In this document: positions 5,020 to 33,583 of the stretch, piece by piece
Numbering within the stretch: the first letter of the stretch is position 1
How the letters are laid out: each line of letters begins with the position of its first letter
DNA from: Pseudomonas putida
GTDB lineage: Bacteria; Pseudomonadota; Gammaproteobacteria; Pseudomonadales; Pseudomonadaceae
Reading direction: 5' to 3'
DNA length: 64,000 bases
Assembly: GCF_009883635.2 (NCBI RefSeq)
Contig: NZ_CP026115.2
Location: 5,766,001-5,830,000 of the forward strand
The notes under the pieces: generated by a model
Database searches by the model: none
The model's input: only the letters and a program-made list of their open reading frames with translations
What the model was told of the DNA's origin: nothing
Program-made: the position numbers and the translations under genes

Positions 5020-5961
5020 TCATTCCTCCAGCTTTCTGATGAGCCCACCAAACTGCTGAGCCGGCTCGACATAGCGAAGGGCAGATTTCATGTCGCTCCA
5101 GCCCACGTACTCCATGAGTGTCTTGATGTCCCATCCTGAGCTCGCTGCCCAGGTAGCAAACCCTCGCCGGATCGAGTGAGCACTGTAGATCTCGGAGGGC
5201 AAGCCACACCTATTCAAGGTGTCGCGGAGGAGAGGAATAAGGCTGTGGGCTGCGATCGGGCGATCGCTGATATTGCCCCAGCGATCAATCCCCCTGAACA
5301 CGCCGCCACGAGTGAGGCCAGCAGCTTCGATCCAGTTCAGGTACGCCTCGACCGGGCACAGTTTGCTCAGTGATGGTGTCTTGTACTCACGGCCAGTGTT
5401 GTGTCGGTCTCCTTTGGAAGACCCTAGATAGAACCTGATCCCGACGTATCGCTCCGCATGCGTATTCTCGATCGTGAGCCTAGCCAGTTCGTCCCCGCGG
5501 AATCCCCTCCAAAAGCCAATGGTGAGCAAAGCGATGTCGCGGGTCGCCTTGAGTAGAGCCGCCATGTTGCCGGCAGCTCTTGCCTGAACAACCTCATCCT
5601 CCAGGTGCGCCACTGCTTTTTCCAGATGCAATAACGCCAGAGGAGCTGCTTGCTTCTGCTGCACGGGGTGTACCGCCCGGATGCCCTTCAGCAACTGCCT
5701 GACCTTGGGGGCTTTTGTGGGGTCGGGGAAGCCGTTGCTTTGGTGCCAGTTCGCCAGCGCAGCTAGACGTTGCTTCAGCGTGCTCAGCGCCAGCTGGTCG
5801 GCGTACTCCGCGATATAGCGGACAACGGACTCAGTGGTGGTGGGCAGGAAACCGCCCCAGGTGACTTCGTAGTGGGAGAGGGCGGCCGCATAGCTCTTCG
5901 ACGTGTTCTGACGAACGCTCGCCTCCAAGTACCTATCTGCCTTGTTGATCATATCAACCAC
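5020..5961 (-). CDS. Tyrosine recombinase / island integrase
   Basis: Site-specific recombinase of 313 residues starting at GTG 5961 after GGGGA. The N-terminal half is a SAM-like core-binding domain (SYAAALSHYEVTWGGFLP ... LSTLKQRLAALANWHQ). The C-terminal half carries the catalytic set: Arg in GFWRGFRGDEL, the HSIRRGFATW box (H-x-x-R), a Trp in place of the second His in YVGWSD, and the nucleophilic Tyr in ALRYVEP near the C-terminus. All key residues are present, so it should be active. It diverges from the KfrA-like gene at 6167 and marks the left edge of the defence island, so it is the likely integrase. No att repeats could be identified by eye. Confidence 0.9.
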   Translation of the reverse strand: MVDMINKADRYLEASVRQNTSKSYAAALSHYEVTWGGFLPTTTESVVRYIAEYADQLALSTLKQRLAALANWHQSNGFPDPTKAPKVRQLLKGIRAVHPVQQKQAAPLALLHLEKAVAHLEDEVVQARAAGNMAALLKATRDIALLTIGFWRGFRGDELARLTIENTHAERYVGIRFYLGSSKGDRHNTGREYKTPSLSKLCPVEAYLNWIEAAGLTRGGVFRGIDRWGNISDRPIAAHSLIPLLRDTLNRCGLPSEIYSAHSIRRGFATWAASSGWDIKTLMEYVGWSDMKSALRYVEPAQQFGGLIRKLEE

Positions 5962-6045
5962 GTCATTTCCCCGTTTTCAGCCTTCGGTGGCTAGCCTTGG
6001 CCATTTGTACCGCCTTTCAGGCGATTTTACCCTCGTTCTAAGGGC

Positions 6046-6078
6046 TGGCAAGCCATAACTCTTGATTATGTCTTGCCA
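6046..6078. promoter_or_regulatory. Inverted repeat in the integrase/kfrA divergent promoter
   Basis: TGGCAAG (6046-6052) and CTTGCCA (6072-6078) form a perfect 7-bp inverted repeat with a 19-base spacer. They lie in the A+T-rich 205-bp region between the divergent integrase and KfrA-like genes. KfrA proteins repress their own promoters by binding inverted repeats, so this is a candidate operator; a recombination arm site is the alternative. Confidence 0.4.
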
Positions 6079-6166
6079 AAATTCTAGGTAGAAAATGGTT
6101 TAACACGTGATAAAGTGGCACGTAATTACATGAAACGTAAAACAGTACGAAATCGTAGGAGGGATC

Positions 6167-7159
6167 ATGGCTAGAGGCGGTATTAACCTGGCGCTTGTGC
6201 GCAAAGCTCGTGAAGCGCTGATTGCCCGAGGCCAGAATCCAAGCATTGACGCGATTCGTATAGAACTTGGAAATACCGGCTCAAAGACGACAATTCAGCG
6301 CTATTTGAAGGAAATAGAGACTCATGACCCTCGGCCATCCGCTTCTCCTTCGAGGCTAAGCGATGAGCTGACTGAGCTAGTGGGCAAAATGCTGGAGCGT
6401 TTGCTGGAGGAAGGGAGCGAGGCGCTGGCGCATGAACGTGCCTCCTTTGATCTTGAGCGCCAGGCGATGAAGCAGGAGGTGGATACACTTCAACGTCAGC
6501 TAGACCAGGCGAAAGACCAGATCGCCACGCTGCAGTCAGCTATGCAAGCGCAGGATGAAGAGCTCAAAACGACTCATTCCTCACTGCAGACCGAGCTCAC
6601 ACGCAACGCCAGGCTCAGCCAGAGCTGCACTGATTTAGAGGTGCGGGTTCAAGAAAAGGACGGGCAGATTCAGTCCTTGGAGCAAAAGCATGCGCATGCC
6701 CGGGAGGCCCTCGAACACTATCGTGCTTCGGTCAAGGAGCAGCGAGACCAGGATCTGAGCCGCCATGAGTCCCAGACCTATCAAATGCAGCAGGAGCTGA
6801 CCGTCCTTCAGCAAACGCTCATGGTCAAACAGGAGGAAATCTCCCGATTGATCCGGGATAACGAGCGGTTCATTGCCGAGAGTCGCCAACAGACCAAAGA
6901 GAACTCGCACCATCGCGAGGCCCTCGAACGTCTGCGGGGTGACCTAGGCATTGCTAATGCCGCTACTGCCCGTGCGGAAGGTGCCAAGGAACTGCTCGCT
7001 AGCCAGTTGGAAGCCAAATCTAAAGAGGCCGGCGACGCTCAGTCGGAGGTTGCAGCCGCGAAGCTGAGGGAGGAGGGTCTGGTACATAAGCTCGCCAGAG
7101 CAGAAGCAGAACTTGCAGCGCTGGGTTCATTGAGCGAAGCGGATGGCTCACAGGCTTAG
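6167..7159 (+). CDS. KfrA-like DNA-binding coiled-coil protein
   Basis: A 330-residue protein with an AGGAGGGATC ribosome site. Residues 1-60 form the KfrA_N helix-turn-helix (INLALVRKAREALIARGQNP, then SIDAIRIELGNTGSKTTIQRYLKEIE). From about residue 65 to the end runs a long alpha-helical coiled coil rich in Q, E, R and L. KfrA of IncP plasmids binds operators upstream of its own gene and its coiled coil helps plasmid maintenance. On the chromosome such proteins often accompany integrases of genomic islands. It diverges from the recombinase at 5961, which suggests joint control. Role in the island (partition, regulation or excision control) is inferred. Confidence 0.85.
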   Translation: MARGGINLALVRKAREALIARGQNPSIDAIRIELGNTGSKTTIQRYLKEIETHDPRPSASPSRLSDELTELVGKMLERLLEEGSEALAHERASFDLERQAMKQEVDTLQRQLDQAKDQIATLQSAMQAQDEELKTTHSSLQTELTRNARLSQSCTDLEVRVQEKDGQIQSLEQKHAHAREALEHYRASVKEQRDQDLSRHESQTYQMQQELTVLQQTLMVKQEEISRLIRDNERFIAESRQQTKENSHHREALERLRGDLGIANAATARAEGAKELLASQLEAKSKEAGDAQSEVAAAKLREEGLVHKLARAEAELAALGSLSEADGSQA

Positions 7160-7490: not shown

Positions 7491-9212
7491 GTGCTACAGG
7501 CTGCAACTGGCAAGCTCTTCAGCAATCGCGATAACCCACGTACCCAGGATCTCAAAGGGGTGATCTACACGAACCTGAATCTCGGGGCTGTTGAGCGAGT
7601 CAGCACCAGGATCGGGAGCCTGATCAACCTGGATACTTCTCACACTCCGGCCGCGCTGGGGTATGAAATGACCGAGTACATGGAGGCGGCTGAGCCGGAG
7701 CCTGGGGTTCTGGTTTCGCGCACCATGGGTGCTTACATTGACGACTTTGCTGACGTGGCGTCCTTCAGCCTGCAGGTGATTTGCTCGCCTGACGTTCACG
7801 TTGCTGAACGCCTGCTACGCCAGCGTCCCCGACCAGGGGAACGGCAGCCCAGTGAGCGCATGGCACGCTTCTATGACGCATCCGTGATGGTCACTCAGTC
7901 CGAGATCCAGGCTTTCGAAAAGTTAGCCGAGCAACTGATCGGGTTGCAGCGCAGCACATACCTTGCGGCCATCCAGGCCATCAGAACGTACGTGGCCGCT
8001 GTTCACAGGATGAGCGATGACCTCAACCTAGCCTACACGTTGCTGGTGATGTGCATTGAATCTCTGGCTCAGAAGTTTGATGGCCACGAACCAGCCTGGG
8101 CGGATATTCCTGAACCGAAGAGGACGGGGATCGATGCGGCTCTGGATGGTGCGGATGAAGCGTGCGCGAATGCAGTCAGGGCCGCGGTGCTGGAAGTGAT
8201 CCACCCACGCCTTAGCTATCGATTTGTCCAATTCATACTCGCCTACTTGCCGGCGGATTATTTTACCGCTCAAGCCGATGCTCAGGCACATCCGATCGGG
8301 CGCCGTGACCTAGAGGCAGCGCTCCAGAATCTCTATGGGGTGCGCTCAAGCTATGTTCACACGCTCAAACCGTTGACCAAGGAATTTCTGCACTTCGCCA
8401 GCCACCATGAAACCTGCGAGGATGATGGCAAGCTCACCTTCACCTTCCAGGGGCTGTTTCGACTCGTCAGGGCGGTAATCATCGAGTTCGTTCGAAAGGC
8501 AGATAAGATCGAGCACGAGCCATGTAACTACGAGTGGGATAATCCTCACCTTCTGAGGATCAGACTCGACCCGTCGATGTGGATGTACAACCCTGCAGGC
8601 TTGAATAGCCAGACGCCCAGGCGCTTCTTCCAAGGGGTGGTCGAGCTGTTGGATCAGTGCCTGCTTGAGTACCCCGACCGCAAGCTCCACCGACCTGCCC
8701 AAGTGATCGGCGCCGGCTTCAGTATCCTGTCGCAAATGAGCGAACCTCAGAGGGTTTCGTTCTTAGCGTTCTGGTATCTCTCCAACGTCTATCTAGGGCA
8801 CGAACCAGGTCAGAGGTTCCATACGGACAAAGAGCTGGAGCTGCTGAACAAGCCCAGCGTCGAATCCCTGATTGCGCAAGCAGTCCTCGGTTGCGATACG
8901 GAATGGACACCGGCAGACCATCAGACTCAGCTAGATCGCTATTACGCGCAGCGCTACAAGCCCACTGGCATCAAGGTACCTGCAAACGTGGAGACGTGCA
9001 TGGAACTGGCAATGGCTGAACGCTACAGGCTGGCAGGTGACTCGACTTCGGCTATCTCAGCGTTGGCGTCCGCGGCCGAGAACTGCCCGCATCTCAAACA
9101 CCTGCGTACATTGTCGGCTGGGTATGACCCTGACACTCCCATCGCGTGGCTTTCGATCATCTACCCACGCACCACAGGGCCGCGGGCAACCCTCGAATGC
9201 AATGGTTTGTGA
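7491..9212 (+). CDS. HEPN-motif protein, candidate defence RNase
   Basis: A 573-residue cytosolic protein starting at GTG 7491, with AGGAG six bases upstream. I do not recognise the full-length family. The middle looks like a HEPN domain: a helical region (LNLAYTLLVMCIESLAQKFD) is followed by 'LYGVRSSYVHTL', i.e. R285-x4-H290, the R-x4-6-H signature of HEPN ribonucleases in the common 'Y..RS..VH' form. The N-terminal 130 residues look like a separate mixed alpha/beta domain, and the C-terminal 150 residues are helical. The next gene starts 87 bases downstream on the same strand and carries a nuclease-like motif, so the two may form one system. No membrane segment. RNase function is inferred from one motif. 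Confidence 0.55.
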   Translation: MLQAATGKLFSNRDNPRTQDLKGVIYTNLNLGAVERVSTRIGSLINLDTSHTPAALGYEMTEYMEAAEPEPGVLVSRTMGAYIDDFADVASFSLQVICSPDVHVAERLLRQRPRPGERQPSERMARFYDASVMVTQSEIQAFEKLAEQLIGLQRSTYLAAIQAIRTYVAAVHRMSDDLNLAYTLLVMCIESLAQKFDGHEPAWADIPEPKRTGIDAALDGADEACANAVRAAVLEVIHPRLSYRFVQFILAYLPADYFTAQADAQAHPIGRRDLEAALQNLYGVRSSYVHTLKPLTKEFLHFASHHETCEDDGKLTFTFQGLFRLVRAVIIEFVRKADKIEHEPCNYEWDNPHLLRIRLDPSMWMYNPAGLNSQTPRRFFQGVVELLDQCLLEYPDRKLHRPAQVIGAGFSILSQMSEPQRVSFLAFWYLSNVYLGHEPGQRFHTDKELELLNKPSVESLIAQAVLGCDTEWTPADHQTQLDRYYAQRYKPTGIKVPANVETCMELAMAERYRLAGDSTSAISALASAAENCPHLKHLRTLSAGYDPDTPIAWLSIIYPRTTGPRATLECNGL

Positions 9213-9299: not shown

Positions 9300-10403
9300 A
9301 TGGCGCTGAAGCAGTACGACCATCCGAGCATTGAGCTAGCAGTTGCAACCATTTTCAGAACAGCCATGGAGAACACGATGGGTAACCTGCCCAGTGGCCG
9401 AAAAGAGCTGCAAGTGACAGTCTGCAATCCCTTCATTCCCCCTACAGAGTATCGCCAGGGAATGGCGCTTGCCGTGGAAGGGATCGGAGCGCATCTAAGC
9501 CAGCGCGAATTTGAGGCTCTTGTGTACAAAAAGCTGCGGCTGGAAGACCCAGCACCCGCGGAGTATCAATACCTCCAGGCTGCAGTCGAGCTGACCGTGT
9601 GTGCTCATTTCGCCCATTTTTTTCCAAGTGATTTCACCTACGAAGACAAGGTGGTTCGACCTCGTGATGTTGACTGCTCCTTCCGTAGTGAAGGCTTTAA
9701 GTTCAACGTGGAGGTGAAATGCGCTGACTATACGACCAAGCATGAGATCGACTCGGCAAACCAGTTCATTATTCGGTCGATAGGTCGGTTGCCGGACTAC
9801 GACGATGCAACCGCACAGCTTCAAGAGACCTTTGCGAGCGGAGGAAAAATACTGGCGAAGGGGCTTCATATGGACAATAAGCTGAAAGACTACTTGTATG
9901 ATGCCAATGGGAAATTCCCGGACAGGGCAGACGACACCCAGTACAACGTACTCGTCGTTGGATGCGATGACCCTTGGGACATGCGGCAGTGGGAAGGCTA
10001 CCTCACGGGCACACAAGGTCTGTTCACCGAAACCCCCTTCGCGGATGCATCACGTTATGACAACGTCGATCTAGTTGTCCTGACCAACCTCTACCATCGT
10101 CATAAATCGGTCGAGCAGAAGGACAAGCTGACGGGACACTGGGAGTTTTCCAACGCCTTTTGCCTTCTCTATGAAAATCCCAGATCCAAGAAGTCCAGAT
10201 CGATGCTTTATGCATTTTCCAGGACGCTGCGTTTCTACAACAACGAAGTCATTGAGCATAAGATGGAGGGTGATGCACCTGATCATCTCTCAGAGCGATT
10301 AGCCATCACACATTATGTCGGTCAGGTGCTATGGCCAAGCGGGCACTTCACCTTTCAACCCAAGTCAGGCAGACCACGCAAAGCCGGAAACGAGGCTGGC
10401 TAG
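9300..10403 (+). CDS. Hypothetical protein with PD-(D/E)xK nuclease-like motif
   Basis: A 367-residue protein of unrecognised family. Residues 123-140 read R-D-V-D-C then a strand and N-V-E-V-K, giving D125 ... E138-V-K140. This matches the D-x(n)-(D/E)-x-K core of the restriction-endonuclease fold, on two predicted beta strands as expected. The preceding helical region (LQAAVELTVCAHFAHFFP) could carry the first acidic residue. It follows the HEPN-motif gene on the same strand and ends 22 bases from the convergent pPIWI-RE gene. It might be the DNA-cutting partner of the HEPN protein or an accessory to pPIWI-RE. The ATG at 9300 has a weak ribosome site, so a slightly later start is possible. 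Confidence 0.55.
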   Translation: MALKQYDHPSIELAVATIFRTAMENTMGNLPSGRKELQVTVCNPFIPPTEYRQGMALAVEGIGAHLSQREFEALVYKKLRLEDPAPAEYQYLQAAVELTVCAHFAHFFPSDFTYEDKVVRPRDVDCSFRSEGFKFNVEVKCADYTTKHEIDSANQFIIRSIGRLPDYDDATAQLQETFASGGKILAKGLHMDNKLKDYLYDANGKFPDRADDTQYNVLVVGCDDPWDMRQWEGYLTGTQGLFTETPFADASRYDNVDLVVLTNLYHRHKSVEQKDKLTGHWEFSNAFCLLYENPRSKKSRSMLYAFSRTLRFYNNEVIEHKMEGDAPDHLSERLAITHYVGQVLWPSGHFTFQPKSGRPRKAGNEAG

Positions 10404-10425
10404 CGTGGCATCTCGATCGGCAATA

Positions 10426-12792
10426 TCAATACCGGCCTTTCCTCAGTTTCTCAGCCACCGGATGATCCTCTGCAATCTGCCGGGCCGCATGAAGCGGGGA
10501 GGGAAGCCGCAGGAAACCATCCCACAGCGGCGCATTCTTGCACCAGTATCCCGCCTGCAGCGCCAACTGATCTTTGTTTGCAAAATCCCCTTCCTGAATC
10601 ATCACAAACTCGGTCACCCCGAGCTGCAGCCACGAATCCTTGAGCTGTGACTGTGTGACGTCATAGCGGGTGTGCTTTCGGTGAGAGCGCACCTTGTGGA
10701 AGGTCTTGGAATACGACGTGAAGTAGTACACCAGCTCTTGGTGTTCAGCCTGGTGCACGCCAATACGATTGCCTATGAACATGGGCGCCAGCGGCGAAAG
10801 GGAGTGGACGCCTGTCATTTGAGCCGTTTGATGATCAGACCGCGTGCGGATCAACCAGGCGTTTTTCGGTACCGGTGGTAAGCCATGGCCGGCGCCGTCA
10901 TTCATGCCTGGGTACAGGCGCTTAGCGCCGGCGTTGATATAAACAATCAGCGGGCTGTCAGCCACTGGGGTCGGGGCCAGGAGCGCCTGCCTGATCAGCA
11001 GCTTCGTAGCCTCCCCATCCAGAAGTTTTGGGTTCGCATGAATGGCGCAGAGGCCTTCACTGTAACTTCTCCACTGGCCCGGTTGACCTCCGGCTCCATC
11101 CACGTAGACCTGCATCTCGCTTGTGTTGACCACAGCGCGCGTGATGACGGGCAGGTACACACTCAGTTTGCTGAGGTAATCGACGTAGATCGAAACCACG
11201 GTCGTATCAGCCGGGATGCCTGCTGTGCGCTCTAGAGGGATCGGTACATAGCCGGTACCGCGGATGGCATCGATCAGGCTGTTGATGCCTGGGTAATCCT
11301 CTGCCTTGTCGGATTCCTCAGCGTTCGCCTTGGCCTTACGCAGTCGGCTTTTAAGCCCTGCGGCAATACCCTTGGAGGAGGCAGCCCCTTCAGCCTGCGG
11401 CGGAAGGTGGAAGATGAACTGCGTGGTGACCCTATGCTTAGCGCAGAGCGCTCGCAAGACATGTTTCGGATCGTTGTCGTCTTTCGTGGCCACCTCGGGC
11501 GTAGTCTCGATGATCGCAGCGTCCGGCATCCAGGCGGTCAGCCGCGGCAGCAGTTCATCGATAAACCAATTTTGGATGTCGGCCGAACTCGTTTTGGTGG
11601 TCAGTATGCGCTGCGCATCCTTGCACTGGATCTGTTGGAGCAGGACTTGAGGCTTAGGCTTGTCCCTAAACACGTGGGAGACTGATTCCAGATGGGTGTA
11701 CGCCGTGTTAATGCGCATCATGATGTCTGTATGCGCGGTTACCACCGCGAGGCGGATAGGCCGCGCTGGCGCATAAGAGACGTTGTCTCGCAGGGCGATC
11801 AGCCGACCGACATACCGGGTCAGCATGGGCTTGGCGGAGGCTACGGTTTTCTGGACGTGGAAGCTTGCTTGGTCGAGGATGACCGTTCCGACGCCACTGC
11901 CAATGGGTGAGCCAATTGGCGTGTGGGTGTGAATAGGCCTGAGGGGCCCCGACAGAGACACTTCATTGCCACCCAATGCCGGCAGGCTGCCTTCTCCCAT
12001 GTGCTGGATGAGCTCCGCGGCGGGGCTGGAGTAGACCGTCTGATATTGGCCCTCGCCAATACGTATCGTGTGGATCTGAAACTTGGAAATTCCGTAGTCA
12101 GTCTTGAGCCAGGTCGAGTGTGTGGTATGGCGCCACTCGGGCAGAATGTGGCTCAGATGCACCGTCACGGATGCGTACTGACTGGGCACCTTGTGCAGCA
12201 ACAAGAGGTTCGTCGACATTGAGTGCATGGCCACGGCCTTGCGATCGCCTCGGGCGTAGAGCAACGGGCTGTCCCAGGCGACCAATGAACCGTCGCTGCA
12301 CACCGTGAGGTTCAACAGGACAGAAGAGTCCATCGGCTTGGTCGATAACTGATGGGCCAGCATCCAGGGGACGACTTTGTAGGCCAAAGTCGACTGTCGT
12401 GGGTCGCGCATGACGTCGGACGCATGAAGCGGCATGGCGAGATCGGGTATCAGCGCATGAACGAAGTCCTGTTGGCCAGGCGGTGTGTTGCGCAGGATAT
12501 GCTGAGCCCATACGTTGATTGCCCGGTTCAGTTTGCTGGAGTCGAGCGCCTTCAGGGACACTATGGCTGGCGCGTCTTTGCTTTTGAGCAGTTGCGCGTT
12601 GACCCAGACAGGGCCGCCTGACAAGTAGCTGAGGATCTCTTCCAGTGACTCAGTGGGCAGATATGGCTTGCCGAAGTGGTCGGTGAGTAGCGCCCATGCA
12701 TTCAAGAATTCACTTGAAGCATGGTACTGCGTGACGGGAGGGAGCTCGTCCGGATCAAATCGGAACAGGTTAGTCCTCAGGGAAATCGTCAT
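10426..12792 (-). CDS. pPIWI-RE protein (PIWI/RNase H-fold, conflict system)
   Basis: A 788-residue protein I assign to the pPIWI-RE family, the prokaryotic PIWI branch described bioinformatically by Burroughs, Iyer and Aravind (2013). The N-terminal half is the variable X/MID-like region. The C-terminal third shows the RNase H-like PIWI pattern: 'EMQVYVDGAGG', 'PLIVYINAGAKRLYPGM', 'WLIRTRSDHQTAQMT', 'ELVYYFTSYSKTFHK', 'GVTEFVMIQEGD' and the typical end 'LRLPSPLHAARQIAEDHP'. The strongest support is context: it is the last gene of an overlapping trio with a DinG-type helicase (23-bp overlap) and a REase-fold protein. The family is predicted to target R-loops or replicating invader DNA. The assignment is by eye; an alternative is an unrelated RNase H-like protein. 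Confidence 0.72.
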   Translation of the reverse strand: MTISLRTNLFRFDPDELPPVTQYHASSEFLNAWALLTDHFGKPYLPTESLEEILSYLSGGPVWVNAQLLKSKDAPAIVSLKALDSSKLNRAINVWAQHILRNTPPGQQDFVHALIPDLAMPLHASDVMRDPRQSTLAYKVVPWMLAHQLSTKPMDSSVLLNLTVCSDGSLVAWDSPLLYARGDRKAVAMHSMSTNLLLLHKVPSQYASVTVHLSHILPEWRHTTHSTWLKTDYGISKFQIHTIRIGEGQYQTVYSSPAAELIQHMGEGSLPALGGNEVSLSGPLRPIHTHTPIGSPIGSGVGTVILDQASFHVQKTVASAKPMLTRYVGRLIALRDNVSYAPARPIRLAVVTAHTDIMMRINTAYTHLESVSHVFRDKPKPQVLLQQIQCKDAQRILTTKTSSADIQNWFIDELLPRLTAWMPDAAIIETTPEVATKDDNDPKHVLRALCAKHRVTTQFIFHLPPQAEGAASSKGIAAGLKSRLRKAKANAEESDKAEDYPGINSLIDAIRGTGYVPIPLERTAGIPADTTVVSIYVDYLSKLSVYLPVITRAVVNTSEMQVYVDGAGGQPGQWRSYSEGLCAIHANPKLLDGEATKLLIRQALLAPTPVADSPLIVYINAGAKRLYPGMNDGAGHGLPPVPKNAWLIRTRSDHQTAQMTGVHSLSPLAPMFIGNRIGVHQAEHQELVYYFTSYSKTFHKVRSHRKHTRYDVTQSQLKDSWLQLGVTEFVMIQEGDFANKDQLALQAGYWCKNAPLWDGFLRLPSPLHAARQIAEDHPVAEKLRKGRY

Positions 12793-15700
12793 CAGGTAGC
12801 CCCTCAGTCTCTTGTGAGCCTGCAGGTGTTTGCGGGCCCGAAGTCTCGATGTACAGCGTCATAGCTTCCACCAGCCCCGCGTGGTGCGTGGAAAACTCGC
12901 TCCAGTGGCCATCCTGCTTGAGCTTGTAAATGGTGCGTTCCAACAGCATCGCCCAAGTGTAGCGACTGTCGAAGAACGCCGCGTCGGCCAGGTAGCAGGT
13001 GACGGGAGTGCCTCCACGCCGGGCACGCCCAACCAGCTGGGTAAGCGTGACCAGGACGTTCATGATGGTGAAGAACCGGATGGCTTTGCGTTGGCTGTAA
13101 AAGTAGGGCGGTGCCAGTCGGATACCGTTGAGTATGCGGTTTGCCATGGCGCGCTCTGCCAGCAGCGCAAGGCCTGGACTCGCTGACGCCAGCACACTCT
13201 CGCCAACGCTGTAGCAAAGGTGCGCGAGGTTGTTGCCGGGCTGGTCTGAAGAAGGCAATGGTCGCACACACACCACCACACCCCCCAATGCCGACTTGCC
13301 GTCGGCGGTCACGATGTTGTGACCCCGCGCCATCGGATAGATCGAGCTGACCATCAGTTGCACATTCGCGTTGGGGCCGTCGGCGAATTCGACGAGATCG
13401 TCGTAGGTGAGCCGGTTCGCAAGCGGTAAGCGCTCTTGTCGATCGGTTTTCTTGCCGCCCCTGATCCATGCGACCTTGCGCTGCCCTGCAGAAATTTCAT
13501 GGAGGGTTGATGCGAGCTGTTCTGCCTCAGCGTCACTTCCTGTGACAAGTAGCAACCGTGCTCGATGGCAGGTGTTGGCGTCCTGTTCCAGGGCCGCCAA
13601 GCGGCTGGTGAGCCAAGGCCAGAGCTCATAGGCCAGATCCCTTACGTTGAGCAGGCGAGAATCCAGAGGGGCGCCTGAAACGTGCACGGAGACATTCACA
13701 TTTTCAAAGCGAATATTCCCCTTGGCGTCCGGAACGTCGATCAGTGTCTTGGCGTTCAAATCGAAGCAGCTGGCGCCAGGGAAGAACGCCGTGGCGCTGA
13801 AGCCAATGAACGTGCGATTCACACCAGCATGGATCTTGGACGTCAGGTTCGGCAGATACTGAAGTGTCCGATGCGGATCCCCGGACATAGCCACGACCTG
13901 AAGCGACCAGGTGTCCCGCCCCTCCAACTTACGTTTGAAACCGTAGACAACGCGTTGCAGCGGCCCAAGTGGCGTCGGACTGAAGGGCGCCGAGCCCGAA
14001 AGATCCTGCTGCACCCTCAACGCCGCGGCTACCTTCGCACGAGCAAGCATGGGGACATCTGAATAGAGGGTACGAAGGCTGGTCTCAATGAAGTGCAAAC
14101 CCGTCCTGATGACCAATGACGACTTGAGCTTTTCGAGTTTATCGTCGTTCAGCTTCCTCCCTAGCTGTTTACGTGCCGCCAAGGTGCGAAGCAGATCACC
14201 AATGTTGACGACCACCTCCATTGGGCTTGGCAGCGCGTCATTGTGTGAGAAGGCTTGCAAGAGTTCCTGCAGCGGCGCCAGATGGGGAGGAATTCTCTGA
14301 TCGCCGTAGCCGCAGACACCATCGAGCACCGATGGGTCGACGCCAAGGTAATCAGCGATCATCTGATCTTCCGCACGCTCCCACACGGTTTCGCGGTCTG
14401 GCCATTTCAGGTGCTTCAAGGCCAACTGGAGCAGCCGTGTCGTATGCAGGATTACCGCATTGCAGCCCCGCTGGGCACGATACAGGGTCGGGGCATCGAC
14501 ATCTGGAATGCTGTCCCGCCCAAAAATCTCCATGTGCAGTTCAGCCAGGCTGCTGTGCTCGATGTGGTTGCTCAACGGCAGCTCAAACACGCTGGTGTCG
14601 ATGGCACTCAGTAGAAGGCCATCGATCTCATCGACCATGAACAGTGAGGCCGTTTTGAGCAGCAGCTCCAGTAGACTTCTTGATTCACCACCCCCACCTT
14701 CGACAGCGATACGGGTGGTACCGGAAATCAGAGCATGGTGATTGACGACGACGATGTCCGCTGCCAAAGCTTGTTCGAGCATCGTGCGCTTGCCGCACTG
14801 GTTTAAAAACGGACAGCTGCGTATGCGTTTAAACGTCTCACGCCCTCGGCGCTCACCCGGGATCTGCAGATTGAAGCAGGGCTCTTCATCCCGAGGACTT
14901 ACGCTCTCGTCTGTTGCGCAGGCATCGAGGAGGCACCGATAGTCGTAGGGGTGATCCTCTCGGCCACGTGCCAGGTAAAAATCTCCCGCTTTAGCAATCC
15001 GGCGCTGGGAGTGCAGCGGGGCAATCTTCAGGTGGGGGGCGACGATACGCACCGAACGTTTCAGAGCCTCAACCATGTTGCGCACGTCAGTCAGGTTGGG
15101 AACCGCAATAACGACCCGATGCCCTTGCAAGGCGGAATGGATGCCCATCAACCCCATGACGACAGTTTTCCCTGTTCCTGTCGGCGCATTGACCCGGTAG
15201 AAATTTCCCGCATTTGCCTCTACGCGCTCTTCATTTCGCACGATTGAGTTCAAGGAGCTTCGATGGCTCTGGTGCAGATGGTTGATCGGGTCGCGTCCCG
15301 CTTGATCGAGCGCACTGGCCAACTCATGCAGCGAAGCCTTCTCCCAGGCAAACTTCGGCACGTCCAAGGCTTCAACCAGGGGAAGAGGGGTGTCATTTAG
15401 CACCAGTCGCGAGCGCTGGACTTTGGGAATGACGAACGTGCGATACCCATCGGACTGTGTTTCTCGAAGAATAATCTGTCCGTCCACGGGCCATTTCGTA
15501 CATGAAGCTGCAGTTGACTCCACCTTGATAGCGCAGAGTTTCTCTTCGATCAGGCCGTCCAGGTCGAAGCCTTCCTGGAAACAGTAAACGTCGGTTTCGG
15601 TCAGGGGTGGCGGGACTTCTTGGCTAGCTAGGAGATCAGCACCCGCTGCCCGAAACGGCGAACCAGCACCGAAGATAATCCGCCGCGCCTCGTCCAGAAA

Positions 15701-15910
15701 TCGCCCAGTCTGGTTCAAGTCGACAGGGCGGTACTTGATGAGCGTGATGATCTGCTCGCGTGCCACCTCAGAAGCGCTTTCCCAACCGATCCACAGATGA
15801 GGACGTCCTACCAGAAAGACTTCAGCGTCAGCGAGGGTCGGCTCCTTGCTGATGTGCTTGATGGCCAGCCCAAGCGCCAGGGCGGTTGCACTTTCAGTTA
15901 ACGTTGACAT
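12770..15910 (-). CDS. DinG-type Fe-S helicase of the pPIWI-RE cassette
   Basis: A superfamily-2 DNA helicase of about 1046 residues. I chose ATG 15910 (MSTLTES) over the ATG at 15934 because GAAAGAG precedes it. Walker A is APTGTGKT (residues 242-249) and Walker B is FMVDEID. Between them is the XPD/DinG-type Fe-S cluster region with four to five cysteines (YDYRCLLDACAT, EPCFNL, RSCPFLNQCGKR). Late motifs include 'GFSATAF' and 'LVGRARRGG'. The first 220 residues form the extra domain expected for the pPIWI-RE three-gene cassette. It overlaps the REase gene by 13 bp and the PIWI gene by 23 bp, so the three are translationally coupled. Likely role: unwinding DNA or R-loops for the PIWI/nuclease partners. 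Confidence 0.82.
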   Translation of the reverse strand: MSTLTESATALALGLAIKHISKEPTLADAEVFLVGRPHLWIGWESASEVAREQIITLIKYRPVDLNQTGRFLDEARRIIFGAGSPFRAAGADLLASQEVPPPLTETDVYCFQEGFDLDGLIEEKLCAIKVESTAASCTKWPVDGQIILRETQSDGYRTFVIPKVQRSRLVLNDTPLPLVEALDVPKFAWEKASLHELASALDQAGRDPINHLHQSHRSSLNSIVRNEERVEANAGNFYRVNAPTGTGKTVVMGLMGIHSALQGHRVVIAVPNLTDVRNMVEALKRSVRIVAPHLKIAPLHSQRRIAKAGDFYLARGREDHPYDYRCLLDACATDESVSPRDEEPCFNLQIPGERRGRETFKRIRSCPFLNQCGKRTMLEQALAADIVVVNHHALISGTTRIAVEGGGGESRSLLELLLKTASLFMVDEIDGLLLSAIDTSVFELPLSNHIEHSSLAELHMEIFGRDSIPDVDAPTLYRAQRGCNAVILHTTRLLQLALKHLKWPDRETVWERAEDQMIADYLGVDPSVLDGVCGYGDQRIPPHLAPLQELLQAFSHNDALPSPMEVVVNIGDLLRTLAARKQLGRKLNDDKLEKLKSSLVIRTGLHFIETSLRTLYSDVPMLARAKVAAALRVQQDLSGSAPFSPTPLGPLQRVVYGFKRKLEGRDTWSLQVVAMSGDPHRTLQYLPNLTSKIHAGVNRTFIGFSATAFFPGASCFDLNAKTLIDVPDAKGNIRFENVNVSVHVSGAPLDSRLLNVRDLAYELWPWLTSRLAALEQDANTCHRARLLLVTGSDAEAEQLASTLHEISAGQRKVAWIRGGKKTDRQERLPLANRLTYDDLVEFADGPNANVQLMVSSIYPMARGHNIVTADGKSALGGVVVCVRPLPSSDQPGNNLAHLCYSVGESVLASASPGLALLAERAMANRILNGIRLAPPYFYSQRKAIRFFTIMNVLVTLTQLVGRARRGGTPVTCYLADAAFFDSRYTWAMLLERTIYKLKQDGHWSEFSTHHAGLVEAMTLYIETSGPQTPAGSQETEGLPDDDFPED

Positions 15911-16932
15911 AGCTCTTTCACCCACTGCAGGCACTGGGATTCAGACTTGATCTGCTTAGGGCTGCACTGCTCATTTAACGAATCGGAGTGCTGCCGTTGG
16001 TAGTCCGGAATGATGTAGATAGCCCCAGTGGATGGGGTATCTACCAGGTGAAGGCCCAGATTTCGAGGCGAATTCCAAACCTTGGCATCCAGCGAGTAGG
16101 TTCGATCATTGACCGTGAAGCGCAGGTCAGCCTGGTCGACGTCGGGCCACAGCTCAGCAGAAATCCCTAGCCGAGCAATGCCATCGCGCAAGCGCATCTC
16201 CAGCAGCCCCGGAATCAAGGTAAATGTCCACAATGCGGGGACTAGCCGGTACTTGTTCTTGGCAGTGACGGGGTGAATGACCTTCGAGGTTCTGACGCTC
16301 ACCAGGTCGTCAGCCATCCACTGGAAAATTCCGACGGTTTGTTCACACCACTGCGCGCCGCAGGACACTGCCCGGTGCTGAATCTCCATCGGCCACCCAC
16401 ATCCCGGACACAGGTAGATACAACCCGAGCGGATCAGATGCTGAGGTATCGGTTCGTACAGCGAGTTGAAGCTGACTTGAAGCGGGATCAAGAAGTCCAG
16501 GCTACTGTCAGCGTCTACGACCCCATGCTCGATCAAAAACATCCGGAACAGCCGGTATTCATCATCGCCATGGGGTCGCGTCCGGCAGAGGTCGCGAACC
16601 TTCTTCACGATTTGCTGGATACGCTCCCAGCCCAAGCGAGGGTTGGTCTCCAGCGCGATCGCGCTGCACAGCATGGTGGGTTCATCGGCGAACTGCAGAG
16701 CGCCCTCGTATCCTTGCCTGAGACGACTGTCCAGCCATTGCTCAAGCGGCAGGCTGAGGCAGGAGAGCAGATTTGCGATCGTGCGGGGAGGGGAACCGGG
16801 CTCCAGCCACCAGAGCAGGGCGCTGGCCTGGCGCATGAGGTCATGCCGCTCGGCAAATTGGCGGGCATCAAGCTGCGCTGCCTCTACGATCAGGCCGAGC
16901 AAGCGCTGGGCGTCGCTATCCACTGAGTCCAT
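15898..16932 (-). CDS. REase-fold protein of the pPIWI-RE cassette
   Basis: First gene of the trio, 344 residues from ATG 16932, which follows AAAGGGGGG; the frame is open further up to 16995 but without a ribosome site. The N-terminal 150 residues are helical. A zinc ribbon follows (C175-x2-C178 and C191-x4-C196). The C-terminal 100 residues read 'GISAELWPDVDQADLRF' then 'SLDAKVWNSPRNL' and 'GAIYIIPDY'. That is the restriction-endonuclease core E260 ... D269 ... D282-A-K284, and this W-P-x-V-D-x-x-D-L ... D-x-K-x-W arrangement is what I associate with the REase component of pPIWI-RE loci. It probably cleaves DNA with the help of the helicase. Catalytic residues appear intact. Confidence 0.78.
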   Translation of the reverse strand: MDSVDSDAQRLLGLIVEAAQLDARQFAERHDLMRQASALLWWLEPGSPPRTIANLLSCLSLPLEQWLDSRLRQGYEGALQFADEPTMLCSAIALETNPRLGWERIQQIVKKVRDLCRTRPHGDDEYRLFRMFLIEHGVVDADSSLDFLIPLQVSFNSLYEPIPQHLIRSGCIYLCPGCGWPMEIQHRAVSCGAQWCEQTVGIFQWMADDLVSVRTSKVIHPVTAKNKYRLVPALWTFTLIPGLLEMRLRDGIARLGISAELWPDVDQADLRFTVNDRTYSLDAKVWNSPRNLGLHLVDTPSTGAIYIIPDYQRQHSDSLNEQCSPKQIKSESQCLQWVKELCQR

Positions 16933-17330
16933 AAGCCCCCCTTTACTTGGAAGCATGTGTCTCTGCGGAGCATCGTGCTCTGCACGTCTTACCACCGGAT
17001 CAAGCAGGCTGGTTCAATAAATCGATTATCGCAAGACAACCGGTCGGATCGCGCCGTGCTCGCTGGCGTCGGCGTCCAGCTGAAAGCCCCATGCAGCCTA
17101 TTCTACTGTTCCGTTGGGCCTTCCTGTTTGGGGCGCCACGTTCCGATCAATGGCCAGGCGTATGAGCCTTGGGAGGGGCTGGGGGTAGGGCTTTACTAGC
17201 TACCAGCATTGGGTAGCCTCCGGCAGGATTTCGTGGCATATAGCTATTACATCCAGGGAGGAATGATTGTCGCTAGGCTGGCGCTGGGCCAACCCACTCC
17301 CTGCCACTGAACAAGGATGGGAGCAGCGCT
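16933..17330. other. Divergent intergenic region between pPIWI-RE and Gabija operons
   Basis: About 400 bases separate the start of the REase gene on the minus strand from the OLD-nuclease gene on the plus strand, so both promoters must lie here. Frames crossing it (for example 16947-17199) lack ribosome sites and protein-like composition. GGGTAGGG at 17183-17190 is one of the KOPS-like octamers. I see no clear palindromic operator or terminator. Confidence 0.5.
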
Positions 17331-19397
17331 GTGTACCTTTCGGCTTTGAAGATCGAAAATTTCCGCCAGTTCGGCCATGGCGATCACGCGTTGGACATCC
17401 AGTTCAACGAAGGCGTGACCGCCCTCGTTGGTGAAAACGACGCTGGCAAGACGGCGGTCATCGACGCGATCCGCTACGTGCTGCAAACCCGGGATGCCGA
17501 ATACCTTCGATTACAGATCGAGGACTTCCACATTGCCAGCGATGGTACTCAGGCCGAGACCATCACGCTCAGGTGCACCCTGGAAGGGCTGAGCCTCGCG
17601 GAACTGGGTGCTTTCGTTGAGTATGTGACGTACACCGGTGGCGTGGGGCGTCTTTATGTACATTGGTCAGCTCGTCGCGTTGTCGCCTCAGCCTCTACCC
17701 GCAAATGGGTCGACATCTCGGTTCGCTCGGGTGAAAAAGGAGAGGGGCCTTCGCTGGACGTGGGTGTACGACAGCTGCTCGCCACTGCATACCTGAAACC
17801 GCTGCGCGATGCCGAGCGAGAAATGTCACCAGGCCGGAATTCCCGGCTGTCCCAGGTATTGAGCAGTTTCCCTAATATTGATGCGGGTAACGCGTTTGAT
17901 CCCGCGGCACTCCCGACCGACCTCACCGATGCAGAAGCCCTCAGCATTGCCGGCATGGGGGATTTCCTTCGTCACTTGGTGAACCGTCACGGCGCTATCG
18001 TCTCCGCGCAGAACGAGATCAACGATACGTACCTTCGGCCTCTATCGCTGGCTGGCCAGCCCCTAACCAGTCGCATCGGCTTTGGGGAAGCTGGAACGGA
18101 TCCCGCTAAGCTCAAGCAGATCCTGGAGCGGCTAGAGCTCGGCCTGCTGGATCATGCCACTGGGGAGGCGCGCGGCATCTACGGTCTGGGCTCCAACAAC
18201 GTGTTGTTCATGGCCTGTGAACTCTTGCTCCTAGGCAAAGAGCCTGACGGGCTTCCGCTGCTCCTCATCGAAGAGCCGGAGGCCCACCTGCACCCGCAAC
18301 GTCAGCTCCAATTGATGGAGTTCCTCGAAGCCGCGGCTAAGCCCTCCACGGGGTTGAGACCGGTTCAGGTCATCCTCAGCACCCATAGCCCGAACCTGAG
18401 TTCGAAGATACCGTTGCAGAACCTGGTGCTGATGCAGCGGCAACGGGCGTTCTCGCTCGCCGAGAGTGAAACCTGCCTGGCACCAGATGATTATCGCTTC
18501 CTCAGCCGGTTCCTTGATGTGACCAAGGCGGGGCTGTTCTTCGCTAAAGGCTTGCTCGTGGTTGAAGGTGATGCAGAAGCGATCCTCCTACCGTCACTGG
18601 CACGTCGGTTGGGTAAGGATCTGACCAAGCACGGGGTTTCGATAATCAACGTGGGCGGTGTCGGCCTGCGGCGCTATTCGAAAATCCTGCAGCGCAAGGA
18701 CACGTCCAAAGGCGAGATCACAGTGCCCACAGCCTGCATCACCGACATGGATGTGATGCCCGATTGCGCGCCAGAGATTCGGGGCCTGAAGGGGGTCAAG
18801 GGGGCGGTTTGGCCAGACATCGCCAAGCGGCGCTGGCGCGCCGAAAAAGATTTCGGTTCCACACCGGGAGACATTGAAAAAGGCCTGAAGGTACATCGCG
18901 AGAAGCGCGGAGAGAGTGACGGGCAATGTGTGCGGACGTTCGTTGCCGACCACTGGACGCTCGAATACGACTTGGCGTTCAAAGGGCTCTCGAAGGAAGT
19001 CCATCACGCCGCATACCTGGCCATTTATGAGGAAAAGATCGACGACGGCACGGAAACCAAGGCTAGCCTGCTGAAGAAGGCGCAGAAAGCCTTCGAAAAT
19101 ATCCAGACGACCCATGCCTCCGAGGAAGCCCGTTGCTCAGCGATCTACAAACTGTTCAATCGGGCGTCAAAAGCGATCGCAGCCCAGCACCTGATCGACT
19201 TCATTGAACAAGGTTTCGAAAACGGTTCCCTAGATGCCACGAAATTGCGGGGATTGTTGCCAACCTACGTTGTCCATGCGATCGAGTACGCAACCGGAGG
19301 TGCAGCCCTGGCTACCACCCCCGGCCCGGCTCACCCGCTCATGGCGACGGCAGCACCGGCAGGTTCTACTGATCCGCTGGAAGAGGCCTCCGAATGA
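17331..19397 (+). CDS. gajA: GajA-like OLD-family ATPase/TOPRIM nuclease (Gabija)
   Basis: A 688-residue protein starting at GTG 17331 after GGGAG. The N-terminal ABC-type ATPase starts with 'MYLSALKIENFRQFGHG', Walker A GENDAGKT (34-41), and a Walker B near residue 311 (LLLIEEPEAHLHPQRQ) followed by 'VILSTHSPNL'. The TOPRIM nuclease follows with LLVVEGDAEAILLP (E412) and ITDMDVMPD (D472, D474), the acidic metal-binding residues. This is the class 2 OLD layout. The next gene, overlapping by four bases (ATGA), encodes a UvrD-like helicase, the defining Gabija arrangement. In Gabija GajA nicks DNA when nucleotide levels fall and GajB senses DNA ends. It is about 100 residues longer than the Bacillus protein, mostly at the C-terminus. 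Active-site residues look intact. Confidence 0.82.
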   Translation: MYLSALKIENFRQFGHGDHALDIQFNEGVTALVGENDAGKTAVIDAIRYVLQTRDAEYLRLQIEDFHIASDGTQAETITLRCTLEGLSLAELGAFVEYVTYTGGVGRLYVHWSARRVVASASTRKWVDISVRSGEKGEGPSLDVGVRQLLATAYLKPLRDAEREMSPGRNSRLSQVLSSFPNIDAGNAFDPAALPTDLTDAEALSIAGMGDFLRHLVNRHGAIVSAQNEINDTYLRPLSLAGQPLTSRIGFGEAGTDPAKLKQILERLELGLLDHATGEARGIYGLGSNNVLFMACELLLLGKEPDGLPLLLIEEPEAHLHPQRQLQLMEFLEAAAKPSTGLRPVQVILSTHSPNLSSKIPLQNLVLMQRQRAFSLAESETCLAPDDYRFLSRFLDVTKAGLFFAKGLLVVEGDAEAILLPSLARRLGKDLTKHGVSIINVGGVGLRRYSKILQRKDTSKGEITVPTACITDMDVMPDCAPEIRGLKGVKGAVWPDIAKRRWRAEKDFGSTPGDIEKGLKVHREKRGESDGQCVRTFVADHWTLEYDLAFKGLSKEVHHAAYLAIYEEKIDDGTETKASLLKKAQKAFENIQTTHASEEARCSAIYKLFNRASKAIAAQHLIDFIEQGFENGSLDATKLRGLLPTYVVHAIEYATGGAALATTPGPAHPLMATAAPAGSTDPLEEASE

Positions 19398-21382
19398 CGC
19401 TCAGGCAACTGGTTGCCCCCATTACTGACGCAGATGTGGACTGGGTCATCGAGCTTATGGGGCTAGATCCGCTGGACGAGCCCCGCCGTGATTTCTTGAA
19501 GTCCATGGACACAGTCGACGTGGCGGCCTGTCCTGGGAGCGGGAAGACAACCCTGGTCGTCGCCAAGCTTGCCATCCTGGCTCGTCATTGGAAGAGTCGT
19601 ATGCAGGGTATCTGCGTGCTTTCGCACACCAACGCGGCCAGAGAAGAGATCGAGAAACGCCTTGGTGGCACCGAGGTGGGCCAACGACTGCTGCGCTTTC
19701 CTCACTACATCGACACTATCCATGGCTTCACTGGCCGATTTTTGGCGTCACCATGGTTACGCTCGCAGGGCATTGCACTGCAGGCAATCGATGATGAGGC
19801 CACTCACAAAGCTCGTCGAAGGGAGCTGTCATATCGTGAACACTTAGGTGCACAGGCCGCCTTCGAGAAAAAATTTAACAGCCTTCACAACTTGCGAGTG
19901 CGGTCTGCCGACTTCGATGATCCCCTCGGCGATGAAGACATTGGTTTTGCGCCACACACGGCAACCTACAAGAGTGTGGTGAAATCATTGAGCGGCGCGG
20001 CCAAGGCCGGTTACTTCTGCTTCGATGAGGTATTCGTGTTAGGGCACGCCTTACTCGACCAGGAGCCGGCCGTGGGCGGTGCATTGCGCCTGCGCTTCCC
20101 ATGCGTGTTGATCGATGAAATGCAAGACACCCAACCTGACCAGGCGGGTGTTCTTCAACGGGTCTTTCCTCATGATGACCCAGATGTGCGTGTCATTCGT
20201 GTCGGAGATCCCAACCAAGAGATCTTCGAGAAGAAGACGCCCTTGCAGGATCCCTTCCCTGATCCAGGGCGTCAGTTGGAGATTGCAAGCAGCTTCCGGT
20301 TTGATCAGGCCATCGCATCGATCGCCAATTCGTTCGCGTATGTCCCAATCACGAATGGACTGATCGGACTTCGTGCTCCACGTGCCCCGGGCAGCGTCCC
20401 CAACACGATCATCGTCTTCCCTGATAACGATGCAACGGGTGTGTTGGATGAATTCGGCAAGCTGGTGCTGGAGCACCTTCCGGCAGAGTCCCGCGAGGCT
20501 GGTGTGTTCGCCGTCGGTGCTGTACATCGGCTTGAGAACTTCAAGGCAAACCAGTACCCGAAAGCCCTGGAGCATTACTGGCCATCCTACCGGTCTGACA
20601 CAACGAAGACATCGTTCAAGCCTCGTACCTTTGCGGAAGGCGCACACGTTGCCAGACGTACCGCGATGAAAGAAGCCACAGCTGCTCCCGCAGTTGAGTT
20701 GTTGGCTTCATGCTTGTTAAACCTCGGCACACTGGCGTTCCCCGGCAGCTTGATGCAACTGAGAGGTCGACACCACGCTGCAGTGGAGGAAAAGCTTACC
20801 GCGAAGCCGCAAGCATTCGCACAGTATCGAGAGTGCCTTCAGTTGATCCTATTCGGAGCGGCTGAAATGACCGAACAGGAGTGGCTCACGACCATTGCTC
20901 CGAGAGTGCTGGTGGTGGCAACCGCGCTTCATGATGCCGAAGGCGTGACTGTAAATCTGGAGGGTTACCAGTATCTTGCTTGGCAGGTAGCCCCAGTTGC
21001 CAATGAGGCCAGCGAAAGTGGTGGCTCACTGATCAACACTTACCGGTACCAGGATGGTACCGATGGCGTCGACATTCGTATGTCATCCATCCATTCGGAA
21101 AAGGGCAAAACTCACGCGGCTACGCTGATCCTGGAGACCTTCCGGAAGACCCACTTTATTCAGAAGCTCATGCCATGGCTCGAATGTCAAAAGGCAGCGG
21201 CCAAGCGACCACCGGACAGCGCCAAGAAGGACATGATGCTGATGTATGTGGGGATGACTCGACCATCTCAAATGCTGTGCCTGGCTGCCCGCAAAAGCAG
21301 CATGGGCGAGGGGACAACGGGAGAAAAACGAAGGGCTGCGCTAGAGGCCGCAGGATGGTCGATTCTGGAACTTGAGACCTGA
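19394..21382 (+). CDS. gajB: GajB-like UvrD/Rep-family helicase (Gabija)
   Basis: A 662-residue superfamily-1 helicase translationally coupled to gajA through ATGA. Motif I is ACPGSGKTT (about 45-53), motif Ia is 'VLSHTNAAREEIEKRL', motif II near residue 240 is 'LIDEMQDTQPDQ', motif III is 'VIRVGDPNQEIFE', motif IV includes 'ASSFRFDQAIA', and a late motif reads 'SSIHSEKGKTHAATLILE'. The final motif VI region has 'LMYVGMTRPSQMLCLA'. All are typical of UvrD/PcrA-like enzymes. In Gabija this protein hydrolyses (d)NTPs and recognises DNA termini, activating the GajA complex. It is longer than the Bacillus GajB. No damage is seen. The gene at 21476 follows on the same strand after 93 bases. Confidence 0.82.
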   Translation: MTLRQLVAPITDADVDWVIELMGLDPLDEPRRDFLKSMDTVDVAACPGSGKTTLVVAKLAILARHWKSRMQGICVLSHTNAAREEIEKRLGGTEVGQRLLRFPHYIDTIHGFTGRFLASPWLRSQGIALQAIDDEATHKARRRELSYREHLGAQAAFEKKFNSLHNLRVRSADFDDPLGDEDIGFAPHTATYKSVVKSLSGAAKAGYFCFDEVFVLGHALLDQEPAVGGALRLRFPCVLIDEMQDTQPDQAGVLQRVFPHDDPDVRVIRVGDPNQEIFEKKTPLQDPFPDPGRQLEIASSFRFDQAIASIANSFAYVPITNGLIGLRAPRAPGSVPNTIIVFPDNDATGVLDEFGKLVLEHLPAESREAGVFAVGAVHRLENFKANQYPKALEHYWPSYRSDTTKTSFKPRTFAEGAHVARRTAMKEATAAPAVELLASCLLNLGTLAFPGSLMQLRGRHHAAVEEKLTAKPQAFAQYRECLQLILFGAAEMTEQEWLTTIAPRVLVVATALHDAEGVTVNLEGYQYLAWQVAPVANEASESGGSLINTYRYQDGTDGVDIRMSSIHSEKGKTHAATLILETFRKTHFIQKLMPWLECQKAAAKRPPDSAKKDMMLMYVGMTRPSQMLCLAARKSSMGEGTTGEKRRAALEAAGWSILELET

Positions 21383-25354: not shown

Positions 25355-27857
<2,503 letters not shown>

Positions 27858-32820: not shown

Positions 32821-33583
32821 TGGCGATCACCCGGTCATAGACAGCCGCAACGAATAGGGGGTGCTCATCCACATGCAAGCCTACAGCCCATTGCTTAATA
32901 GCTCCCGGATAGCGTTTTAAAGCAGCGGTCAGAAGCGCCTCAGGCGCATTGCCTGAAAAAGTAAAGAGCAGATGCCGAACGTCCTTAGGCTGTATACCGT
33001 CGATAAGCTGAGCATCATCGATAGCATCCGCCAACGGTTCATTGCCTAACTCCAGCAAACGCTCGGCGATGAACGCGAGCGCGTGAGCAGAAGGCAAACC
33101 ACCGTCCTTATCAAGACCTTCGCGAGCCTCGGTCAGCACTTGGTTTGTGAGCTTGGCGCGGCTCTTTGCTTCTGCCTTGATAAAGACCAGCCGGTGTGTA
33201 GCAGGATCCTCCAGCATGCCAATGACGTCATCACCTCGCATCGCCATGTTCCGGTGGTCTTTCCAGCGAAGTCTCTTGATCAACGACCGAAAGCCGCCGC
33301 TCTGCGTATCAATCCACTCCGTTGCATAGATTTCACCGAGGTCACCTGATCGAATCTGCTTGGACGTCGGAAGCTTCCCTTCAATTAACTCTGCTGCAAC
33401 CGGCTTACCAAGCCGCGCAAGTGCACGTGCTATGCGTTCTTCTGAGGCGTAATGTCCTGGGATGACAGAGGCGGTCGCTTCAACCCCGGTCTGACGGTTG
33501 GCTATCTGACCCGTCAGCACTCTGCGAAAGTGGTTTCCAACAGGCTCATCAGCGGAATCGCACCAATCGTTGAACTGCACCAT
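32804..33583 (-). CDS. hamA: HamA-like DUF1837 nuclease (Hachiman)
   Basis: A 259-residue protein with the DUF1837 core: 'RSGDLGEIYATEWIDT' (E84), 'LIKRLRWKDHRNMAMRGDDV' (D118/D119) and 'RLVFIKAEAKSRAK' (E138-A-K140). This E ... D ... E-x-K set is the PD-(D/E)xK active site of HamA, the effector nuclease of Hachiman. Released HamA degrades DNA non-specifically and so aborts infection. It is the first gene of the two-gene operon, reading leftward into hamB. A 390-base divergent region upstream separates it from a DUF2513-like fragment and should hold the promoter. Length fits the family and no active-site residue is missing. Confidence 0.85.
   Translation of the reverse strand: MVQFNDWCDSADEPVGNHFRRVLTGQIANRQTGVEATASVIPGHYASEERIARALARLGKPVAAELIEGKLPTSKQIRSGDLGEIYATEWIDTQSGGFRSLIKRLRWKDHRNMAMRGDDVIGMLEDPATHRLVFIKAEAKSRAKLTNQVLTEAREGLDKDGGLPSAHALAFIAERLLELGNEPLADAIDDAQLIDGIQPKDVRHLLFTFSGNAPEALLTAALKRYPGAIKQWAVGLHVDEHPLFVAAVYDRVIANANNI

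Follow-up and report, generated by a model that had tools for sequence, protein, structure and literature searches.

A pPIWI-RE cassette of Pseudomonas putida with an apparently inactive slicer site and conserved helicase and nuclease partners

We analysed a stretch of 64,000 nucleotides of Pseudomonas putida DNA (contig NZ_CP026115.2, positions 5,766,001 to 5,830,000; hereafter the window), which carries a three-gene pPIWI-RE cassette on its minus strand. The cassette is a complete and real member of the pPIWI-RE three-gene system predicted in 2013, and its PIWI protein lacks the acidic residues found at two positions, 620 and 745, in relatives of the cleaving type. We favour, with moderate confidence, the reading that this is a chromosomal defence cassette in which the PIWI slicer is inactive and which would act as a guided helicase-nuclease system.

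A preliminary description of the region had claimed three overlapping minus-strand genes, and the open reading frames were confirmed. They lie in the order REase, DinG, PIWI. The first encodes a restriction-endonuclease-type (REase) protein of 344 residues with a helical Y domain, a zinc ribbon and a PD-(D/E)XK domain (15898..16932, − strand), the second a DinG-type helicase of 1054 residues counted from a GTG codon (12770..15934, − strand), and the third a pPIWI-RE protein of 788 residues with X, MID and RNase H-like domains (10426..12792, − strand). By their coordinates the DinG and PIWI genes overlap by 23 nt. The REase/DinG overlap is 37 nt with the GTG start of DinG, or 13 nt if translation begins at the alternative start Met9 (15910). 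Overlapping ends were also read in 17 relatives. The REase frame can be extended to a GTG start (365 residues, 15898-16995, − strand); the ATG at 16932 seems the better start because AAAGGGGGG stands 5' of it, as judged by eye, and because the REase protein of the related locus L015, a Pseudomonas piscis contig, begins at the same residue.

The identity of the cassette with the 2013 module, also proposed in the preliminary description, is borne out by five Pfam pPIWI_RE models and three PADLOC models. The PIWI protein matched the X, MID and RNase H models above cut-off (PF13111, 1.6e-11; PF18157, 2.5e-8; PF13032, 7.3e-19), and so did the REase protein the models PF18154 (5.3e-14) and PF18156 (8.9e-7). 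PADLOC names all three genes (PprPIWI 2.9e-79, PprDinG 8.1e-174, PprRE 9.9e-26). One expected domain was not recovered, since the pPIWI_RE Z-domain model of Pfam had no match in the helicase at E 0.01; the PprDinG alignment begins at residue 16 of the helicase, whose N-terminal part contains invariant columns. The only Pfam match of the helicase at E 0.01 was PF00270, below cut-off (24.6 against 26 bits), and we assign it to DinG because of the PADLOC match and its motifs. NCBIfam at E 0.01 gave no match for the PIWI and REase proteins. The classical Piwi model PF02171 likewise had no match at E 0.01 in the PIWI protein or anywhere in the genome. The source genome, a single contig of 6.19 Mb, has one pPIWI-RE copy. 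The parts published in 2013 are the same: three families, REase-DinG-PIWI order, overlaps, Y domain, zinc ribbon and the R/E residues (PMC3702460, in the passages used here).

The RNase H site of the window protein was calibrated on PsPIWI-RE of P. stutzeri DSM 4166, for which the published residues are D525, D610, R639 and E718 (PMC10991935). According to the results of that paper D525A and D610A abolish cleavage and R639A and E718A do not; the abstract words cleavage of the mutants as 'significantly reduced'. The P. stutzeri gene belongs to the same family, overlaps the upstream dinG by 4 nt, and is reported to co-occur with a DinG helicase and an 'RNase' (PMC10991935). Exactly these four residues are found in four of our loci, namely L021 (P. 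plecoglossicida), L024 (a gammaproteobacterial metagenome-assembled genome), L025 and L031 (both Stutzerimonas), whose genes measure 2352 bp and overlap dinG by 4 nt, in agreement with the paper. Strain DSM 4166 itself is not represented in our loci, and the four orthologues are 35-37% identical to the window PIWI. In an alignment of 45 rows (20 loci, the window and 24 database proteins, some rows being the same protein) the window equivalents are D538 (11179..11181, − strand), N620 (10933..10935, −), R649 (10846..10848, −) and E728 (10609..10611, −). The arginine and the glutamate are the conserved ones of the family and occur in 45/45 rows. The first catalytic aspartate is thus present and the second, D610 in PsPIWI-RE, is missing, and the slicing-competent type requires the equivalents of both. 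Of the 45 rows, 16 have D at the second position (15 loci plus the protein P0030) and 29 have N, H or S. The preliminary description had spoken of a PIWI/RNase H-like protein and had not remarked on the replacement by N620 or the lost acidic residue at 745.

Position 745 (L745; 10558..10560, − strand) varies in step with the second aspartate. In a further alignment of 36 rows, with P0030 set aside, there are 13 D-type rows and 22 non-D rows including the window. E is present at 745 in 13/13 D-type rows and in 0/22 non-D rows, where L (12), H (4) and M (3) prevail and the remainder are I, R or A. Both acidic residues, D at 620 and E at 745, are therefore found in every D-type row and neither in any non-D row. 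Position 538 differs less between the types (D 12, E 1 in D-type rows; D 15, E 6, V 1 in non-D rows), and E579 is kept in the window, in 11/13 D-type and in 16/22 non-D rows. The distance of 125 residues between 620 and 745 agrees with the spacing of the last member of the Argonaute DEDX tetrad, the positions compared being D478, D546 and D660 of TtAgo and H807 of human AGO2. Passages of the Argonaute literature give the DEDX pattern and the residues E512, D597, E637 and D669. By spacing, 745 is a candidate fourth DEDX position and E579 a candidate glutamate finger; E579 appears to fit the Argonaute spacing better than E561, which was dropped as a catalytic position because the non-D rows have Q (12), E (9) or K (1) there.

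Taken together, these residues suggest that the RNase H site of the window PIWI is inactive. The model put forward in 2013 (PMC3702460) has a working slicer: PIWI would sense R-loops or RNA-DNA hybrids and cut one strand, with REase and DinG helping. It gains from the reported RNA-guided cutting of single-stranded DNA and DNA-guided cutting of RNA by PsPIWI-RE (PMC10991935), and from D538 and E579 being kept in the window. It has to reckon with N620 and L745, with the lack of the D-type acidic residues at both positions in 22/22 non-D rows, and with the loss of PsPIWI-RE cleavage in D610A (PMC10991935). For this cassette we regard it as quite unlikely. The 2013 work names active and inactive PIWI versions in general terms (PMC3702460); here the inactive-looking state is set on a calibrated column, is common to many relatives and is under purifying selection.

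Whatever happened to the slicer, the partners have kept their motifs. In the REase protein the zinc ribbon C175-x2-C178 ... C191-x4-C196 (16345..16410, − strand) and the nuclease motif D269-x12-D282-A-K284 (16081..16128, −) are both invariant in 20 sequences; a zinc ribbon and the nuclease residues had been named in the preliminary description. The helicase has a Walker A motif A250-PTGTGKT257 (15164..15187, −; A250, T252, G253, G255 and K256 invariant), four cysteines of Fe-S cluster type, C334, C353, C374 and C380 (14795..14935, −), and a Walker B motif DEID at residues 435-438 (14621..14632, −). An Fe-S helicase of DinG type had been proposed, and it is seen here. REase DxK, zinc ribbon, Walker A and B and the four cysteines are kept in 24/24 aligned cassettes, and motif VI is likewise kept in the DinG rows. 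Of the 24 cassettes, eight count as non-D: six are placed there by PIWI residues, L018 has N620 and L745 in its broken piece, and L019, whose position 620 is deleted, is assigned from kinship and L745 only. Since the Argonaute-like part seems to have no cutting site of its own, the partner nuclease probably does the cutting.

The MID domain of the window PIWI contains a putative pocket for the guide 5' end, K443-x3-R447-x10-Q458 (11419..11466, − strand), which is invariant in 36 sequences and aligns, in a weak profile match, with Y-x3-K-x10-Q of long-B-like prokaryotic Argonautes (pAgos). This invariance speaks against guide-independent restriction of the Mcr kind, in which zinc ribbon and DinG would recognise odd or modified DNA, the REase would cut and PIWI would serve as scaffold or brake. 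A family member also binds and uses guides in vitro (PMC10991935). On the other side, the cassette has no methylase and the REase always comes first, the Mcr systems are compared with it in PMC3702460, no guide source was seen in the window by Rfam and repeat searches, and the MID match to pAgos is weak. We consider such restriction rather unlikely. Guide use had been called an open question in the preliminary description; it is not wholly open, because RNA-guided and DNA-guided cleavage by a family member has been reported (PMC10991935), while the judgement that the system is little studied stands, this paper being the one experimental family study among the papers searched for PIWI-RE, as judged by titles and abstract beginnings. 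It is likely that the cassette is a working member of this poorly studied kind.

The PIWI gene is under purifying selection. Ka/Ks of the window against L015 and L038 is 0.111 and 0.103 for PIWI, 0.068 and 0.059 for DinG, and 0.133 and 0.138 for REase; against L016 both PIWI and DinG show saturation at synonymous sites. PIWI Ka/Ks is 0.066-0.142 in three D-type pairs. When trees of the three proteins were compared for 21 cassettes, a few of them near-identical, 17, 18 and 17 of 18 splits were in common, with distance correlations of 0.97-0.98. Because of these Ka/Ks values and congruent trees we conclude that the three genes are inherited together and that selection still acts on PIWI, presumably for a task other than slicing.

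PIWI is also the part of the cassette that breaks. It is broken in 4 of 25 cassette loci (24 plus the window; L024, L025, L030 and L031 are near-identical), with the partners unbroken as far as the contigs extend. In L017 it is split by an insert with an IS66 transposase, the REase gene lying beyond the contig; in L018 it is in two frames, where a sequencing error is possible; and in L019 and L030 it has large internal deletions. L030 is of the D-type and the other three are not. By protein length (788 of 2186 residues) the chance that all four breaks fall in PIWI is about 0.017, for a search that was itself made with PIWI. For ApsAB, colonies retaining the plasmid frequently had an inactivated apsAB (PMC11096173). 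Two fragments were seen elsewhere. In Azotobacter vinelandii CA (L033, 10001-10771) the C-terminal part of a pPIWI-RE protein stands alone, with no DinG or REase match in 20.8 kb. On a viral-collection contig (L049:6259-7203) an REase piece (residues 30-277) is followed directly by a C-terminal PIWI piece (719-785), with no DinG match.

The distribution of the system is patchy. Above cut-off pPIWI-RE was found in 10 of 298 genomes of the genus and 2 of 398 of the phylum, the source genome being counted in both, and among 57 relatives only in the source genome itself. A search with an alignment as query for remoter pPIWI-RE proteins added a single new row. This patchiness and the defence and mobile-element neighbours described below speak against a host role in replication or repair instead of defence. 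Such a role would suit the P. stutzeri piwi-re deletion, which gave about 15-fold lower survival and filaments under ciprofloxacin (PMC10991935), and we hold it to be very unlikely here.

How might the cassette work? In our proposal PIWI would load a short guide through the kept MID pocket and recognise, but not cut, complementary DNA of an invader or an RNA-DNA hybrid. DinG would then be recruited and would unwind or translocate on DNA, and the zinc-ribbon PD-(D/E)XK protein would cut it. As an outcome, the plasmid or phage could be lost, or the cell could die from collateral damage to DNA. R-loop targeting was inferred for pPIWI-RE already in 2013 (PMC3702460).

The best reading is that it would work as in BPAN or ApsAB. 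In BPAN a PD-(D/E)XK DNase is activated when an inactive long-B pAgo, guided by RNA, binds target DNA (PMC10620215), and the window similarly has an inactive-looking Argonaute-type protein beside such a nuclease; it differs in its PIWI family, in the weakness of the profile match and in its DinG helicase, which the passages of that paper used here do not describe for BPAN. ApsAB consists of an Ago-like protein, with a MID lysine that is needed, working with a helicase-nuclease against plasmids, and it had no activity against eight phages tested (PMC11096173). ApsAB/DdmDE share with the window an Ago-like protein with a MID-like motif, a superfamily 2 helicase and a PD-(D/E)XK nuclease, and the ApsAB nuclease motif D1420...D1433-V-K1435 has the same spacing as D-x12-DxK of the window. 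Helicase and nuclease are, however, fused in one chain in ApsA and DdmD and are separate genes in the window, and ApsB is described as lacking typical PIWI and PAZ domains (PMC11096173). Because PF02171 is unmatched and helicase and nuclease are separate chains, we do not claim membership in the BPAN or ApsAB/DdmDE families. CasDinG of Type IV-A CRISPR, a 5'-3' helicase that unwinds double-stranded DNA and RNA/DNA hybrids, is another case of a guided complex served by a DinG-type helicase (PMC10450177); it is CRISPR guided and has a vestigial Fe-S domain, whereas the window DinG keeps four cysteines and has an REase partner. Among solved structures the PIWI and REase profiles gave chance-like matches only, and the helicase profile aligned with reverse gyrase along a portion of the motor. 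As a side observation, genes overlapping long pAgo genes (L060:146-1672, L061:2430-3644) encode products with an E-A-K motif, by eye of PD-(D/E)XK type.

Several points weigh against our proposal. Because D538 and E579 are kept, the window protein may have weak residual slicing activity. On a 39-row tree the D and non-D types need one change; the dividing branch has low support (33) in an unrooted tree. With about one event behind the split, positions 620 and 745 do not supply many independent cases of loss. A distant protein, P0030, has T at 538, D at 620 and R at 745 and so belongs to neither type. The REase site is kept in D-type cassettes too, so its retention is no particular mark of a lost slicer. 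Comparing profiles with long-B-like pAgos gave a probability of 1.6% and E 0.032. The in vivo phenotype published for the family is ciprofloxacin sensitivity and not defence (PMC10991935). Finally, the window has no Rfam match and no repeat array able to supply guides: its one short tandem array is far from the cassette, at 58314, and the repeats around the cassette are diverged and short, without a regular array.

The cassette lies in a defence island. Its divergent neighbour, not part of the cassette, is a Gabija pair on the plus strand (17331..21382; GajA 17331-19397, 8.1e-227; GajB 19394-21382, 1.9e-151; PADLOC). The same divergent arrangement occurs in L038, which has cassette and Gabija in common with the window at 81% DNA identity (10425-17053 and 17179-21372). 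L015 has the cassette at 93% DNA identity, with no GajA or GajB match in its 22 kb. In 5 of 25 cassettes, all D-type, a compact and co-directional GajA/GajB-like pair begins 50-55 nt downstream of PIWI (L027:12402-15004, L028:12412-14993, L029:12414-14992, L032:9301-11876, L037:4661-7239); the L028 pair was scanned with PADLOC and the others were recognised by GajA similarity. In the PIWI tree L027 is placed away from L028, L029, L032 and L037, and its sister L036 has no such pair among its nearest downstream open reading frames. Further along the window are a Lamassu-like LmuB (25355-27403, 4e-109) with ABC-3C-type partners, and HamA (32804-33583, PF08878), whose neighbouring large DEAD helicase is by inference HamB of the Hachiman type. 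In five neighbourhoods chosen by hand, not at random (L015, L019, L020, L025, L028), models of DRT, Septu, Qat, type I restriction, SngC and Gabija were matched.

The island also contains a tyrosine recombinase (5020-5961) and a KfrA_N protein (6167-7159). This pair (5020-7159) is found near the L018 and L019 cassettes as well, and a recombinase 57% identical to that of the window lies elsewhere in the genome (5596536-5597438). The plus-strand genes 9300-10403 and 7491-9212 had no Pfam (E 0.01), PADLOC or PHROGs match; the former has a 64% homologue in L019. An IS66 transposase occupies 47929-49434 in the right part of the window. An empty site of the island was not seen: the flank genes have relatives, which did not occur together in the best matches compared. 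Promoter- and terminator-like sites were fewer than in shuffles. The plasmid and phage collections gave no match to the cassette, and two contigs of the viral collection did; one of them (L048) is 100% identical to L036 over 11.9 kb. There (L048:4-12349) a complete D-type cassette follows a replication protein, a 488-residue protein and a Zot-family gene of filamentous-phage type. The L048/L036 cassette is possibly inovirus cargo and counts as one observation, not two.

We put forward, tentatively, that a large part of the pPIWI-RE family gave up slicing and turned, convergently with ApsAB/DdmDE, into a guided helicase-nuclease machine made of three chains. The cassettes also stand repeatedly beside Gabija, and the two may work together. 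What our analysis would add is a slicer site whose loss is calibrated, in relatives retaining every other feature tested. The experimental pPIWI-RE study found (PMC10991935) concerns a D610-type protein, with E in its orthologues where the window has L745. In Pseudomonas and its kin natural cassettes with and without the catalytic residue have the same partners in the same order. Therefore the question whether PIWI cuts, or only aims the helicase and the nuclease, is directly testable with natural proteins.

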